DNA from: Vulcanisaeta moutnovskia 768-28
GTDB taxonomy: Archaea > Thermoproteota > Thermoprotei > Thermoproteales > Thermocladiaceae
Assembly (NCBI RefSeq): GCF_000190315.1
Contig: NC_015151.1
Location: 1,736,001 to 1,800,000, forward strand
DNA length: 64,000 bases
Reading direction: 5' to 3'
Shown here: one piece after another, positions 40,721 to 46,982 of the stretch
Layout of the letters: each line of letters begins with the position of its first letter
Numbering within the stretch: position 1 is the first letter of the stretch
The notes under the pieces: generated by a model
The model's input: the letters and a program-made list of their open reading frames with translations, nothing else
What the model was told of the DNA's origin: nothing
Databases searched by the model: none
Position numbers and translations under genes: made by a program

Positions 40721-42067
40721 CTAGGTTCTCAACCTTAATTCCATGTTGATCCTATTAATGATATATGATGACTTACTATATTGATGAATTTCATATTGCG
40801 AATTTGCATCCGTAATTACACTATTAACGCTTATTGCACTAACATTTATATCGCTCATTATACTGTTCATCTGCGTAATTATTTCATTATTAATCACTCG
40901 TAATGCACACCATGAAACCTCACTTACCTGTGATTGATAAATCGGTGATAAGTATTGTTCAGGAGTTATTGGTATGATGGATTCATTGAAGAGATCATAC
41001 GCCTGTAAATAACCTCCAAATAATAATGAGCCATTGAGTAGGTATAGTCCCATTGGGTAGTTCTTGGTTTCATAAACTGGTATCGAATAACCGCTCTGCG
41101 TCACGTAATTAACCTGGAGCAGGTAATAAGTACCTGACAAACAGGTTGGGTTTATTATCGTGCCATTTGGAAGCAGGAGTATTGGCGATATGTATATCAC
41201 GGGCCCAAAGGGCACAAGCCTCGGTCTTTGGTATACCGTATAGCCGTAATTCGTAATTTCACTAATAGTCACATTAGGACTAAGGGTTAGGTGAGTGATT
41301 GATGATGAATTAACGTACTCATTGAATGAGTAGCTAAGGACCTGAAGCGCCTCCTGAAAGCCCGAGCTAGGCCATGAACTTGCATTAATGCCCTGACCAA
41401 CCCACATGGTGAACAGGCTCAGACCGGGCAAACCAACCTCGTAGTGCTCACTAATACCTCCAGTGACTGGATTATAACCATAGTAATAATTCCATAGGTG
41501 ATACGACTCACCATTAAGGGCGATTAGGTAACCGCCTACCGTACTCAGTTCACTTAGTATTTGCGTAAGGCTTTCATTACCTGTTTCGAAGGCGAAGACC
41601 ACGTATTCAGCGCCATTTTTGTCCTCAGTTATTATCACGTACCAATTGGCGTATACGGGCTGCGGATATATTAGGTATAGCGGGACTTCTAAGGTCCACG
41701 TGATACCGCCAGTATCGTTGGTCAGCGCTGTTGAGTTGAGCATTACTTCCTGCTGTATAGTGGTTTCTGATGCATTGACTATGTATAGTGTGAATTCCCT
41801 ATTGGCTGTGGTGACCCAGACAGGCGTTGTATTGGTGATTAGTGAATCTTCACGGTATGTTAATGGGTACTCATTAACTATGCTATTTAGGAACTGTGCT
41901 GTTGGTCTTGAGTCTGTCAGGTTCATTGTTATTACGTATGTCCTGTAAACTACGGGCGTAGGTGCTGGACCATAGGTAGTATTTGCATATGTGATAAATG
42001 AGACTAATGTGAAGATAATTGCTGGAAATACTGCAAATATTATCCATTTGTTGTTAATCATTACCAT
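40721..42067 (-). CDS. secreted or surface protein, unknown
   Basis: The 448-residue protein has an N-terminal signal or anchor helix (WIIFAVFPAIIFTLVSFITYA) and a long region rich in Thr, Ser, Asn, Tyr with many N-glycosylation sequons. No second membrane helix is visible. It is divergent from the secretion ATPase at 42168, only 100 bases away, and could be a substrate or surface part of that system, but nothing beyond position shows this. Start ATG 42067 or 42061. Confidence 0.7.
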   Translation of the reverse strand: MVMINNKWIIFAVFPAIIFTLVSFITYANTTYGPAPTPVVYRTYVITMNLTDSRPTAQFLNSIVNEYPLTYREDSLITNTTPVWVTTANREFTLYIVNASETTIQQEVMLNSTALTNDTGGITWTLEVPLYLIYPQPVYANWYVIITEDKNGAEYVVFAFETGNESLTQILSELSTVGGYLIALNGESYHLWNYYYGYNPVTGGISEHYEVGLPGLSLFTMWVGQGINASSWPSSGFQEALQVLSYSFNEYVNSSSITHLTLSPNVTISEITNYGYTVYQRPRLVPFGPVIYISPILLLPNGTIINPTCLSGTYYLLQVNYVTQSGYSIPVYETKNYPMGLYLLNGSLLFGGYLQAYDLFNESIIPITPEQYLSPIYQSQVSEVSWCALRVINNEIITQMNSIMSDINVSAISVNSVITDANSQYEIHQYSKSSYIINRINMELRLRT

Positions 42068-42167: not shown

Positions 42168-43685
42168 ATGAGCTTAGACTTTCAGTTAATAAAACTGGTA
42201 GGTCAACTCAAGGAGTTGGAGAGGTACCCATTATATGAACCATTTGCATATGCCACAATAGTCCAGGATGAGAAGACGGGAGATATAATGTATTACCTTG
42301 AGGAGATAACACTTGACCCTACCGAACAGCAGGTATATAAGGAGTTGGTAAGGATAGTTATGCTTGAGCTACCACCACCTGAGGAATTAACAAAGATAGG
42401 TGATGTCAAGAATTACCTGCTTAATGAATTAAAGAAGATCGTTGGGCGATACAGAAGGCTGTTCAGAAATGTTTCCACATCATCCTTCGCTAAATTCCTA
42501 TACTACATGGAGAGAGATTTACTTGGTTACGGCCCCATAGATGCCTTAATGAAGGATGAGAATATTGAGGATATATCGTGCGATGGCGTAGGTAGACCTG
42601 TTTATGTGTTTCATAGGAAGTATGAATCAATACCAACAAACATAGTGCCAGTGACAGACCAAGCCCTTGATGACCTGGTTGTGAAGCTAATACACCTATC
42701 AGGTAGGCATGTCTCAGTTGCAACGCCAATAGTTGATGCGCAATTACCTGATGGTTCTAGGATAGCCGTGACATATAGGAAAGAGGTCTCGCCTGGTGGC
42801 TCCACATTCACAATAAGGAAGTTTAGGAAGAACCCATTAACATTCACGGAACTCGTTAAGTTCGGTAACATCAGTGCGGAGATTGCGAGTTACTTCTGGG
42901 TCATGCTGGATAATGGCAGGTCATTCCTAGTGCTTGGTGTTACCGGTGCAGGTAAAACGAGTTTCCTCAATGCAATGGCCACATTCATTAGGCCTCACAT
43001 GAAGATAATAACCGTTGAGGAAGTCCCTGAAATAAACTTACCACATAAGAATTGGATTAGGCTCGTTACAAGGCAAAGCTATGGTTCTGAGAAGATAAAT
43101 GAGATTACATTATTTGACTTAGTTAAGGCAACGCTTAGGATGAGACCTGATTACTTAATAGTTGGTGAGATAAGGGGTGAGGAGGCTTATGTTCTATTTC
43201 AAGCGGTAAACACAGGACATAGCGGCATATCCACTATGCACGCGGAGTCCTTTGAGGCGGCTGTTAATAGGCTCATGAGCCCGCCAATGAACATACCACC
43301 GGCTTATATACCTGCCATGAACATCTTTGTTATGATTAAGAGGGTTAAGATTAATGGTAGATTAACGAGGAGAGTCACTGAGGTTGGTGAGGTTTATATA
43401 GATGGTGATAAAATAAGATTTAATACAGTATTTAAGTGGAATCCAAAAACTGACTCTCACGATTCATATGTAGAAAAGAGCGTCCTAATTAAGCAGATAA
43501 GTGATATGACAGGTAAGGATGTTTATGAAATTCTCAAGGAAATAGACACTAGGGCTAGTATTGTTAATTGGATGGTTGAGAATGAAATACTGAACTTTGA
43601 GGACGTATCTACATACGTACAGACATATTATACAAACCCAGACAAAATACTTAATCAAGTTCTTGGTAAAGGTGATCAAGGTTGA
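42168..43685 (+). CDS. type II/IV secretion-system (pilus-type) ATPase
   Basis: The 505-residue GspE/VirB11/FlaI-family ATPase has a regulatory N-terminal domain, then the core. The core has VATPIVDAQLPDGSRIAVTY, Walker A GVTGAGKTSFLNA (near residue 265), an Asp-box VEEVPEIN, Walker B DYLIVGEIRGEEA and a His box TGHSGISTMHAES. Such hexameric motors power pilus assembly, archaella or DNA export. No TadC-type platform protein follows. Instead the next genes encode a small helical protein and an unusual membrane protein. ATG 42168 follows an AT-rich box near 42133-42142. Confidence 0.9.
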   Translation: MSLDFQLIKLVGQLKELERYPLYEPFAYATIVQDEKTGDIMYYLEEITLDPTEQQVYKELVRIVMLELPPPEELTKIGDVKNYLLNELKKIVGRYRRLFRNVSTSSFAKFLYYMERDLLGYGPIDALMKDENIEDISCDGVGRPVYVFHRKYESIPTNIVPVTDQALDDLVVKLIHLSGRHVSVATPIVDAQLPDGSRIAVTYRKEVSPGGSTFTIRKFRKNPLTFTELVKFGNISAEIASYFWVMLDNGRSFLVLGVTGAGKTSFLNAMATFIRPHMKIITVEEVPEINLPHKNWIRLVTRQSYGSEKINEITLFDLVKATLRMRPDYLIVGEIRGEEAYVLFQAVNTGHSGISTMHAESFEAAVNRLMSPPMNIPPAYIPAMNIFVMIKRVKINGRLTRRVTEVGEVYIDGDKIRFNTVFKWNPKTDSHDSYVEKSVLIKQISDMTGKDVYEILKEIDTRASIVNWMVENEILNFEDVSTYVQTYYTNPDKILNQVLGKGDQG

Positions 43686-43990
43686 AAGTATTACTTAGGT
43701 TTAAAGATCTTAATTCTCTTGTTAAATATTTAAATGAAGACTTGAATAAATTATTAGTAGCCAAGAAAATATTAGAGGAGGAAGTGAATAAGGAGTCGCT
43801 CGTAGATATCATCGAAATAAGGAACAATAACGTTATTATACAGAGAGAAAGAATAACAGAGATAAAGGGAATATTAGATGAACTTGATAATAGGATTAAT
43901 GCAATTAATTCACTACTTGAGGAAATAAGGGATGAGTTTAATGATAGTAATTATGCAGGTCCAAGAGAGTATTACTATCACAGCCCTTAA
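43682..43990 (+). CDS. small helical protein of the secretion-ATPase cluster
   Basis: 102 residues. The TTG start overlaps the ATPase stop (TTGA, 43682-43685), so they are translationally coupled. The N-terminus (VLLRFKDLNSLVKYLNEDLNKL) closely resembles that of the minus-strand protein ending at 44873 (VEIKRFESLNELIQTLKGEL). The rest is a coiled-coil hairpin. It probably forms part of the same complex as the ATPase. No known family. Confidence 0.75.
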   Translation: MKVLLRFKDLNSLVKYLNEDLNKLLVAKKILEEEVNKESLVDIIEIRNNNVIIQRERITEIKGILDELDNRINAINSLLEEIRDEFNDSNYAGPREYYYHSP

Positions 43991-44006
43991 CCTTGAGTGA
44001 GGTACC

Positions 44007-44876
44007 ATGATAATGCTAATACCTGTATTGATCATTGCAATAATGATTGGAATGCTAATCCTAGGTCTGCTCAGACCACCATTAACAGTCATAATACCGC
44101 TCCTAGGTATCTACATAATACTAATGTTAATACCGTACATAATACCAAACCTAACAATTAATCAGTATCTTAGTATCAAATATATAGTAATCCCGATAAT
44201 AGGCTTAGTTATAGGTTATGGGATGTCCATTTTGATAAATAAGTATATGAGTATTGATGTACGGTCACTATTTAAACTAAACCAGGGTCAAAAGACGGTC
44301 TCTAAGAGGCCTAGAAAGATCACGAATAAGCAAAAAAGCGAGAAGAAACCAGGGATTAAGCCCGAGGACTTAGATAAGATAATTCCTAAATCCATTGACG
44401 ACTTAAGACTTGGAATAACAACTAATGAAGCATTGGGTAGTTGGATTGAGTATTACGATGGATGGACCGACACCATAATAAGCGTATCAAGAAGGTTCAT
44501 AGACATCAAGGATAGTACAGAGATTATTAGTAAGGAGGCCTTATTTCTATCGAGGATTAGGCAGTATGAGAATAAAGCCCTATCGCTGGGTCTTACCTTA
44601 AAGGAGGAATCTGCATTTAAGAAGCAAAGGCAGAGAAGATCAAGGTCTAAGAGTAATGAGGATAAATTAATAGTATATGTGAAGCCTGAGGATGTGACTA
44701 CCGATTTAATGACTACTGCGCAATTAATGAGTGGTTATGTTGAGGAGTTCAACAATATAGTCGAGAAGTTAATACGTGATAAAGAGATTTCTCAATATAT
44801 GATTAATTCGCAGATACTAGTTCTCTATATAGATGGAATACCTAGAAAGTTCGTAACTCTTCATAAGGAGAGCTAA
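44007..44876 (+). CDS. three-helix membrane protein of the secretion-ATPase cluster
   Basis: 289 residues. Three transmembrane helices (about 1-22, 27-48 and 60-80) are followed by a basic linker and a soluble region with coiled-coil potential. The last 65 residues (VKPEDVTTDLM ... GYVEEFNNIVEKLI ... LVLYIDGIPRKFVTL) match the C-terminus of the convergent gene ending at 44873. It may serve as the membrane platform for the ATPase in place of TadC, which it does not resemble. Its last 4 bases overlap that convergent gene. Confidence 0.78.
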   Translation: MIMLIPVLIIAIMIGMLILGLLRPPLTVIIPLLGIYIILMLIPYIIPNLTINQYLSIKYIVIPIIGLVIGYGMSILINKYMSIDVRSLFKLNQGQKTVSKRPRKITNKQKSEKKPGIKPEDLDKIIPKSIDDLRLGITTNEALGSWIEYYDGWTDTIISVSRRFIDIKDSTEIISKEALFLSRIRQYENKALSLGLTLKEESAFKKQRQRRSRSKSNEDKLIVYVKPEDVTTDLMTTAQLMSGYVEEFNNIVEKLIRDKEISQYMINSQILVLYIDGIPRKFVTLHKES

Positions 44877-45277
44877 GTATTCTCTTTTTGTATTATTATC
44901 ATTATTGGTATTGAATCAATAAGTAAAGTGATTATTGGGCGATTCCTATCAATATTGAGGGTCTCTAATCTGTCAATAATTGACTTTATAATTGCAGATC
45001 TTCTTTGTATATAGCCAGCGACATCATTTATTACATTACTTCTTGTACTAGAACCTGGCTTATAAACGATTCTTAAGGAGAATACTTCTGAGGAACCGTC
45101 AACAAACTTAATATTTTCAGAAATTTCACTGGCCAATGCAATATTATTTTCTGCACCTAAAATTTCATTCCAATTCTGCTTGAGCATATACATAAATCTA
45201 TATGAGTTACTCAATTCACCCTTTAGTGTTTGAATTAGTTCATTTAGTGATTCAAATCTCTTAATTTCGACAATCAT
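44873..45277 (-). CDS. cluster protein with shared helix-hairpin module (134 aa)
   Basis: Last gene of a four-gene minus-strand operon. The N-terminal strand and helix (VEIKRFESLNELIQTLKGEL) resemble the plus-strand protein at 43682. The C-terminal module is IVYKP, then GYIQRRSAIIKSIIDRL, then TLLIDSIPIMIIIQKE, which lines up with the end of the membrane protein at 44007. The start overlaps the upstream gene's stop by 4 bases. No known family. Confidence 0.75.
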   Translation of the reverse strand: MIVEIKRFESLNELIQTLKGELSNSYRFMYMLKQNWNEILGAENNIALASEISENIKFVDGSSEVFSLRIVYKPGSSTRSNVINDVAGYIQRRSAIIKSIIDRLETLNIDRNRPIITLLIDSIPIMIIIQKENT

Positions 45278-45915
45278 GATAATCCACCCACCTCTTCTTC
45301 AATCTTCCTAAATGGCTCTGGATAGTTTATATTATCTAATTTCACGATAGTTTCGACATTCCTTGAATTATTACTAATCGATGAAATTATTTCATCAATC
45401 ATCTTCATGAGCCTAGCAACCTCATCAGCGGTTAAGCCAACAATACTACTTAAAATGCTGGGTATTTCAGTGGTTTCCCTGATGTTAGGTAAGTATAACA
45501 GTGATGTCTCCGACATGTCGGGCAATGAGTAACCTATTACCACATCTATTGATGCATCATCTATTATAATCACATAATCATCATTCACGCCAAGTTTTTC
45601 AGTAAATTCCATGGCCTGTTTAATAGACATTAATACATTCGTATAATAATTAATTGCATCTCTTATTGCATCCTTATAGCCATTAGCTGTTAATGTGTAA
45701 ATCACCTCAATATCATCAATCTTGGTCGTTACGTTGGTATTGCCCTTAACTAATGTGGCTGGTGATTTACTCCTCAATTCCCTAATCATTTTATTCATGG
45801 TTTCATTATCAGGACTATACGCATAAATCTCACTAATAACCTGGAGTATCTCATTAAGTCTATTACCAAGACTTAAAACTATATCTTTCAACCTATCACT
45901 TCTTAGTACTATCAA
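45274..45915 (-). CDS. cluster protein with shared helix-hairpin module (213 aa)
   Basis: TTG start at 45915, overlapping the upstream gene by 20 bases. The N-terminal strand-helix is IVLRSDRLKDIVLSLGNRLNEIL. A central module has strand IEVIYTLTA, helix DAINYYTNVLMSIKQAMEFTEKL and hairpin YVIIIDDASIDVVIGYS, the same order as in its neighbours. An additional helical C-terminus (about residues 150-213) is unique to this member. No known family. Confidence 0.72.
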   Translation of the reverse strand: MIVLRSDRLKDIVLSLGNRLNEILQVISEIYAYSPDNETMNKMIRELRSKSPATLVKGNTNVTTKIDDIEVIYTLTANGYKDAIRDAINYYTNVLMSIKQAMEFTEKLGVNDDYVIIIDDASIDVVIGYSLPDMSETSLLYLPNIRETTEIPSILSSIVGLTADEVARLMKMIDEIISSISNNSRNVETIVKLDNINYPEPFRKIEEEVGGLS

Positions 45916-46285
45916 GTTCGATCACCACTAAGGATGGTACGTCTCCAAAGTATCTAACTATTGCCTTAAATTCATGCCCCTTAAGCTTACCTAACCTACC
46001 TTCAAGGGTCTCATAAATAGCGTATTCTAACTTAAGAAATTGAAGTGCCTTTGAAAATAGTTCCCTATAAGCCTCCTTTGATGGTTCCTTATATATTATT
46101 ATTGGAATAGAGTTGGGTATATCAATAATTACCTTTTCGCTCCTATCAGGTAGATCAGTCTCATTATTTATCTTATCGTATATATCGGATAGTCTCTTAA
46201 CATAATCAGTAACCTTCCTCTTATTTTCTAATATCCTCCTGTGCAGCTCATCGACATTAATATTAATATCTATATTCGTGCTCAT
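45896..46285 (-). CDS. cluster protein with shared helix-hairpin module (129 aa)
   Basis: The N-terminal coiled-coil hairpin is followed by the shared module: strand PNSIPIIIYKEPSKE, helix KALQFLKLEYAIYETLEGRLGKL and strands FKAIVRYFGDVPSLVVIELD. ATG 46285 overlaps the preceding stop by 4 bases (ATGA). It is the second gene of the minus-strand operon. No known family. Confidence 0.72.
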   Translation of the reverse strand: MSTNIDININVDELHRRILENKRKVTDYVKRLSDIYDKINNETDLPDRSEKVIIDIPNSIPIIIYKEPSKEAYRELFSKALQFLKLEYAIYETLEGRLGKLKGHEFKAIVRYFGDVPSLVVIELDSTKK

Positions 46286-46677
46286 GGCATTATCACCAGT
46301 CTTGTCTTTTTATTTGCATAGTCAATAAGCACCATTACTGAGGCATCCCTACCCTTAATGCCATTTAAGTATTTATTTATCTTTTCAATTTCGTTTACTA
46401 CATAGTTAATATTATCATCTATTACATTCAACTTACTTAGTAACCATGTTGAGTGTGGTGCGATATGTATGTTCATCGTGTGAGGTATAGCATGTACTGT
46501 TATTACTTGGTGAGACGGTTGAAAACCAAGTTTTGTAAGTTTATCCTCAATCTCTGCGTTTATTTTCAGCTTCTCCTTAATTGCCCCATAGCGTTCCCTT
46601 AGGTTTAATAATTGTTCTTTAATTATATTCAATTTACTTATTGCGTCCTCAATTGTGTTAAACAGAAGTACTAACAT
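46282..46677 (-). CDS. cluster protein with shared helix-hairpin module (131 aa), first of operon
   Basis: First gene of the four-gene operon. A TATA-like box on the minus strand (about 46700-46710) is 26 bases before ATG 46677, so the message is leaderless. The N-terminal strand-helix is LVLLFNTIEDAISKLNIIKEQL. The C-terminal module is MNIHIAPHS, helix NVIDDNINYVVNEIEKINKYL, then VMVLIDYANKKTRLVIMP. It resembles its neighbours in order of elements and length. No known family. Confidence 0.74.
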   Translation of the reverse strand: MLVLLFNTIEDAISKLNIIKEQLLNLRERYGAIKEKLKINAEIEDKLTKLGFQPSHQVITVHAIPHTMNIHIAPHSTWLLSKLNVIDDNINYVVNEIEKINKYLNGIKGRDASVMVLIDYANKKTRLVIMP

Positions 46678-46754: not shown

Positions 46755-46982
46755 CTACGTCTCTTCCCTAATCAACCTGGAGATCTCACTAATGGCCTTA
46801 CTTATGTCCTTAACGTCATCATGAATCTCTATTATCTCTGCTATGAGTAATGAATTATCAAGGCACCTTAGAAGTAGGTCGGCCCAACTCCTTGAATGAT
46901 ACAACTGCTTAAGTTTCTTTAACTCTTCATATTGCCTATCATCAACCTCAATTACAATTCTTCTCTTGCCATTTTTAGCCAT
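46755..46982 (-). CDS. small ribbon-helix-helix-like protein
   Basis: The 75-residue protein starts with a basic strand RRIVIEVDDRQYEELKKLKQLYHSRSWADLLLRCL, the usual strand-helix-helix of RHH DNA-binding proteins. A second helical segment follows (IIEIHDDVKDISKAISEISRLI). It could regulate the adjacent cluster or be an antitoxin-like protein; no toxin gene is next to it. The assignment rests only on pattern. Confidence 0.6.
   Translation of the reverse strand: MAKNGKRRIVIEVDDRQYEELKKLKQLYHSRSWADLLLRCLDNSLLIAEIIEIHDDVKDISKAISEISRLIREET

Follow-up and report, generated by a model that had tools for sequence, protein, structure and literature searches.

What does a pilus-type ATPase drive when its immediate neighbours include no platform protein, no prepilin and no prepilin peptidase? 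The question is raised by a block of seven genes (A to G; Table 1) in Vulcanisaeta moutnovskia 768-28, for which an initial annotation, made from the sequence alone, had proposed an undescribed, platform-free membrane machine consisting of a motor and six novel partners. The block lies within a 64,000-nucleotide stretch (the window, G000:C1:1736001-1800000) of the single-contig genome, which has a total of 2,298,983 bases; positions given without a prefix are counted from the first base of the window.

Table 1. Position, strand and interpretation of the seven genes of the block (positions within the window)
Gene	Position	Strand	Interpretation
A	42168..43685	+	FlaI/TadA-type type IV filament assembly ATPase, PilT/VirB11 superfamily, 505 aa
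B	43682..43990	+	small cytosolic protein, TTG start; shortened in V. moutnovskia
C	44007..44876	+	membrane protein, 289 aa; three predicted transmembrane helices and a cytosolic domain of B-family topology
D	44873..45277	-	B-family small protein, 134 aa
E	45274..45915	-	213 aa; probable B-family member with a C-terminal extension
F	45896..46285	-	129 aa; inferred strand/helix order as in the B family, sequence link not established
G	46282..46677	-	probable B-family small protein, 131 aa

The convergent arrangement of two operons described in the initial annotation was recovered in full, with all seven open reading frames in place and overlaps of 4 bases for A/B, C/D (the convergent pair), D/E and F/G and of 20 bases for E/F. 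B had been described as translationally coupled to the ATPase, and three transmembrane helices were again predicted for C; a fixed stoichiometry, which had also been read from the overlaps, does not follow, as gene overlap does not show stoichiometry. Between B and C there is a gap of 16 bases in V. moutnovskia, where its relatives have an overlap of 4 bases. The reading frames were kept in orthologues at ten other loci of the genus, some gene copies at these loci being broken (draft or MAG assemblies), and dN was far below dS for all seven genes (0.03-0.34, against a dS of at least 1.05 or saturated), a sign of purifying selection; on both grounds we consider the seven to be real genes. Two of them evolve fast, since C and E are only about 31% identical to their orthologues in the Vulcanisaeta genome G011, compared with 86% for A. 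The six partners in operons with or against this pilus-type ATPase had been called unknown, and indeed none of B to G reached a curated cut-off in Pfam or NCBIfam.

DNA alignment with other Vulcanisaeta genomes revealed that B has suffered a 31-base, out-of-frame deletion at about 43961/43962, reported here for the first time. The deletion (affecting 43950-43990) removes the C-terminal beta-hairpin from a protein that is 118-123 aa long in its orthologues; either the last hairpin is dispensable or B is decaying in V. moutnovskia.

Two further genes border the block. Divergent from A, on the reverse strand at 40721-42067, is a gene for a protein of 448 aa, possibly a surface protein, which has a hydrophobic helix at its N terminus and many NxS/T sites. 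It has no Pfam match, and its gene occupies this position at the other Vulcanisaeta loci that were examined as well. On the other side, at 46755-46982 (reverse strand), is the gene for a 75-aa protein with a weak match to VapB-type antitoxins and ribbon-helix-helix proteins; most Vulcanisaeta loci have kept it upstream of the D-G operon, of which the protein could be a regulator.

The identity of A is clear. It is a FlaI/TadA-type type IV filament assembly ATPase, matching PF00437 (T2SSE) with an E-value of 3.4e-35 and, among solved structures, PDB 2oap (E 3.7e-105) and FlaI (4ii7; E 6e-79), with CpaF as another relative. An intact set of four motifs had been reported; Walker A (GVTGAGKT), Walker B and the His box are present, but the "Asp box" reads TVEEVPE, with an EE that is invariant within the clade of A, in place of the ED usual in most relatives. 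The archaellum FlaI model scored strongly on A, yet below its cut-off (397 against 550 bits). In an ATPase tree of 30 rows, A and its orthologues from Vulcanisaeta, Caldivirga, Thermocladium-like genomes and a deeper Thermoprotei MAG (G026; contig QMRC01000004.1) formed one clade with support of 100/99, separate from the other pilus ATPases of the same genome and from those of Pyrobaculum type. In Thermocladium-like genomes (L057:1657-3938) A is closely preceded by a second, divergent T2SSE-type ATPase of 423 aa and by a membrane protein that has a sub-threshold T2SSF match; this ATPase grouped in the tree with the one at 1494 kb in V. moutnovskia, both on long branches.

That the locus has no platform, prepilin or peptidase of its own, as the initial annotation stated, is correct: neither a platform nor a prepilin peptidase domain was found in the 64-kb window, and no prepilin in the block. 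The statement does not extend to the genome, which encodes all three. A prepilin peptidase (PF01478, E 1.3e-9) is located at G000:C1:1201687-1202025, stand-alone pilins occur elsewhere, and T2SSF domains occur at three loci. At the first, a pair flanks the ATPase at 1,920 kb; the second is roughly 4 kb away from the ATPase at 1,733 kb; and the third, at G000:C1:2288090-2289949, some 510 kb from A, encodes a protein of 620 aa in which the domain occurs twice. The last has no FlaI/TadA-type ATPase adjoining it, only one of MinD/ParA type (L064:7282-8085, 267 aa). The MinD/ParA-type gene also adjoins the two-domain platform in another Vulcanisaeta (L100) and at two Thermocladium-like loci; it is not beside the platform in G011 or at the two Caldivirga loci examined.

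We searched 41 genomes for members of the clade of A (at least 57% identity) and for the two-domain platform (E-value of 3e-44 or better). Both were present in 10 of the 25 near-complete genomes and both absent from the other 15, a co-occurrence that covers few independent lineages; the exceptions were two incomplete genomes, G006 and G023 (54% and 67% complete), each without one of the two genes. Because so few lineages stand behind the co-occurrence, the pairing rests more on G026, where the genes for the platform, a homologue of B, a C-like protein and A follow directly on one another, in a cluster that also encodes pilin-like proteins; one of these, two genes further along, has a class III signal peptide (PF04021, above cut-off). 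The nearest ATPase outside the clade of A, from Acidilobaceae (47%), has a platform gene directly 3' of it, and this platform was the best relative of the 620-aa protein among 13 further loci compared (225 bits). The missing platform of A is thus most likely the 620-aa T2SSF protein encoded about half a million bases away, an assignment made here for the first time; for Vulcanisaeta itself, we infer the pairing by analogy with archaellum and Tad motors. Searches for the corresponding pilin locus in Vulcanisaeta, with the 596-aa and 561-aa secreted proteins of G026 as baits, gave no match, and a Pyrobaculum-type secreted protein of 1206 aa, used alone or with a homologue, gave only a weak, broken match in G011; neither bait yielded a pilin assignable to A.

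The six partners had been taken for novel parts, and most of them look related to one another. Comparison of the profiles of B and D gave an E-value of 4e-5 (hhalign), a score that none of 60 shuffled controls matched, and the same was true of B against its G026 homologue (E 4e-6), of G against that homologue (E 3.5e-4), and of B against C within the Thermocladium-like genomes (E 9e-5), where the C homologue adjoins A and B. The B model independently picked up D in G011 and G014 and, when run against 290 background open reading frames, ranked D, G and C highly, with only one background frame scoring as high as G. D was modelled by AF2 (pLDDT 77) as a strand, a helix, a hairpin, a long helix and a second hairpin. 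The soluble part of C has the same order of elements in its model, which is of low confidence (pLDDT 61 overall, roughly 70-82 in the soluble helices) and was used for the order of elements alone. The C proteins of G026 and Vulcanisaeta could not be aligned by sequence.

On this basis the firm members of what we call the B family are B, D and C (its soluble part), which appear to be paralogues of one another. Membership is probable, with less support, for G and E. Cross-scoring linked D and E (4 of the 290 background frames scored as high as E with the D model, and 2 as high as D with the E model), while hhalign matches of E to the family did not exceed controls. For F, 11 of the 290 scored as high with the D model, which does not set it apart from the background; its B-family-like order of strands and helices comes from a crude propensity string, and F could be a member by this inferred topology only. 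With a combined core profile, none of E, F and G outscored the circularly permuted controls; for this reason we make no claim for F and a weak one for E and G. Paralogy among the partners, which appears to extend to five of the six with sequence support, is likewise described here for the first time.

Gene order provides a second view of the block. It is conserved throughout Vulcanisaeta, as a single seven-gene system would predict, but synteny within the genus is weak evidence because the unrelated flanking genes (DHH, TmcA) are equally syntenic. Beyond the genus the seven do not stay together: A, B and C are adjacent in Thermocladium-like genomes, and A stands alone at the locus in Caldivirga. 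Neither B nor D was detected in Caldivirga, which nonetheless keeps A and the platform in its genome; the small proteins are therefore not obligatory. No D was found in G026 either, and one Thermocladium-like genome (G014) has a stand-alone D homologue. The occurrence of D-G inside the block, only in Vulcanisaeta, is a further new observation. B adjoins A in the Vulcanisaeta, Thermocladium-like and G026 genomes in which the B model matched strongly. A-B-C is the conserved unit, and paralogy is the basis on which D-G are tied to it. Among other members of the class the B model gave matches at E-values of 0.003-0.02, and those in G060 and G061 hold up as B-like by a local HMM; no pilus genes were found beside the match in G052. 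In G060 and G061 (L180:8390-10992 and L179:5870-8652) the B-like gene encodes 143-147 aa and lies beside a gene for a secreted protein of 724-780 aa, not an ATPase; the secreted protein at L180 has thioredoxin-like and weak PQQ-propeller-like matches.

A unit of this kind is on record. Makarova, Koonin and Albers (2016; PMC4858521) described a "subclade 4A" ATPase of Vulcanisaeta and Caldivirga beside a cytoplasmic and a membrane protein, and tied it tentatively to a pilin locus without an ATPase and TadC of its own; A-B-C is very likely this unit. The main text of their paper assigns no TadC to the subclade 4A ATPase and does not include D-G, the shared family or the arrangement in G026. The archaellum offers a second comparison. 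Its motor, ArlI-ArlJ, works with ArlX in Crenarchaeota or with ArlCDE in Euryarchaeota, and ArlX is thought to hold or switch the motor (PMC8978795). A FlaI-like ATPase and a T2SSF-type platform are common to both systems, and the archaellum accessories, membrane-anchored with a cytosolic part (ArlX) or soluble (ArlCDE), may be likened to C and to the soluble proteins among B-G. The differences are that C has three predicted transmembrane helices and ArlX one, that A falls short of the FlaI cut-off, and that B-G match no archaellum family in Pfam or NCBIfam; nor were ArlH, ArlF, ArlG or archaellins found among the seven genes.

How the parts work together can be read in several ways. Taken at face value, the absence of platform, pilin and peptidase from the block would mean that A drives only the six proteins encoded beside it, with TadC replaced by a new membrane element, C, which is membrane-embedded and shares an operon with A. 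Precedent exists in the clade 4D systems, which according to Makarova et al. (2016; PMC4858521) consist of an ATPase and a protein with four or five transmembrane segments and have no pilins, and it is true that no partner matches TadC. However, C has no Pfam match to T2SSF, and a two-domain platform follows the distribution of the clade of A and lies next to A in G026 and next to its closest outside relative. We therefore set aside the platform-free machine of the initial annotation as highly improbable. A different division would make A-B-C the motor unit of a filament and leave D-G to some other process, as neighbours by history that are kin through ancient duplication only. The absence of D-G from the A locus outside Vulcanisaeta, the stand-alone D in G014, the equal synteny of the unrelated flanks and the B-like genes of G060 and G061, whose neighbour is not an ATPase but a secreted thioredoxin/propeller-like protein, are all consistent with such a division; it is made rather unlikely by the probable paralogy of D, G and E with B, a protein that adjoins A in three groups of genomes.

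Alternatively, B-G could belong to the same filament system as cytosolic, prefoldin-like chaperones or regulators, with no structural part in a collar: they would hold prepilins, select them or exert control over the ATPase. Foldseek searches of the PDB with D gave no significant match, and the best neighbours included prefoldin (E 0.44, prob 0.72) and V-ATPase coiled coils; prefoldin resembles D in having two helices joined by beta-hairpin structure. Against this, D has an additional N-terminal strand and a C-terminal hairpin, no protein of the window matched a prefoldin family in Pfam, and C is membrane-anchored and encoded together with A, and we regard a chaperone role as unlikely. The account that we consider probable has the genes of a type IV filament system scattered, its platform supplied in trans and, as a proposal, an accessory collar made of B-family proteins. 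In such a system A would be the motor ATPase of an archaeal, pilus-like filament, the 620-aa protein its platform, and the prepilin peptidase and pilins would come from further loci; a hexamer of A would hydrolyse ATP against the platform, so that prepilins are inserted into the filament. One coiled-coil/beta-hairpin module would recur in B, in D and in the cytosolic region of C, and probably also in G and E, with F undecided, and the membrane-anchored C and its soluble paralogues may assemble into a hetero-oligomeric cytosolic collar at the junction of A and the platform, which would hold or switch the motor much as ArlX or ArlCDE may do in archaella. This role as scaffold or collar is proposed for the B family by analogy with those proteins. 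More tentatively, and with some doubt, such a collar may have arisen by repeated duplication of a single module, one copy of which became membrane-anchored, and may represent a third solution, beside ArlX and ArlCDE, to the task of steadying or switching a motor of pilus type.

The reconstruction replaces a motor "without a platform" by one that likely has its platform in trans, and it is a warning against relying on gene neighbourhood alone in Thermoproteales, whose pilus genes lie scattered. It also brings several unrelated-looking proteins together, mostly in one family whose role can be tested. If there is such a collar, it would help to explain how archaeal pilus motors of few parts gain accessory rings, and would bear on whether ArlX-like supports arose more than once.
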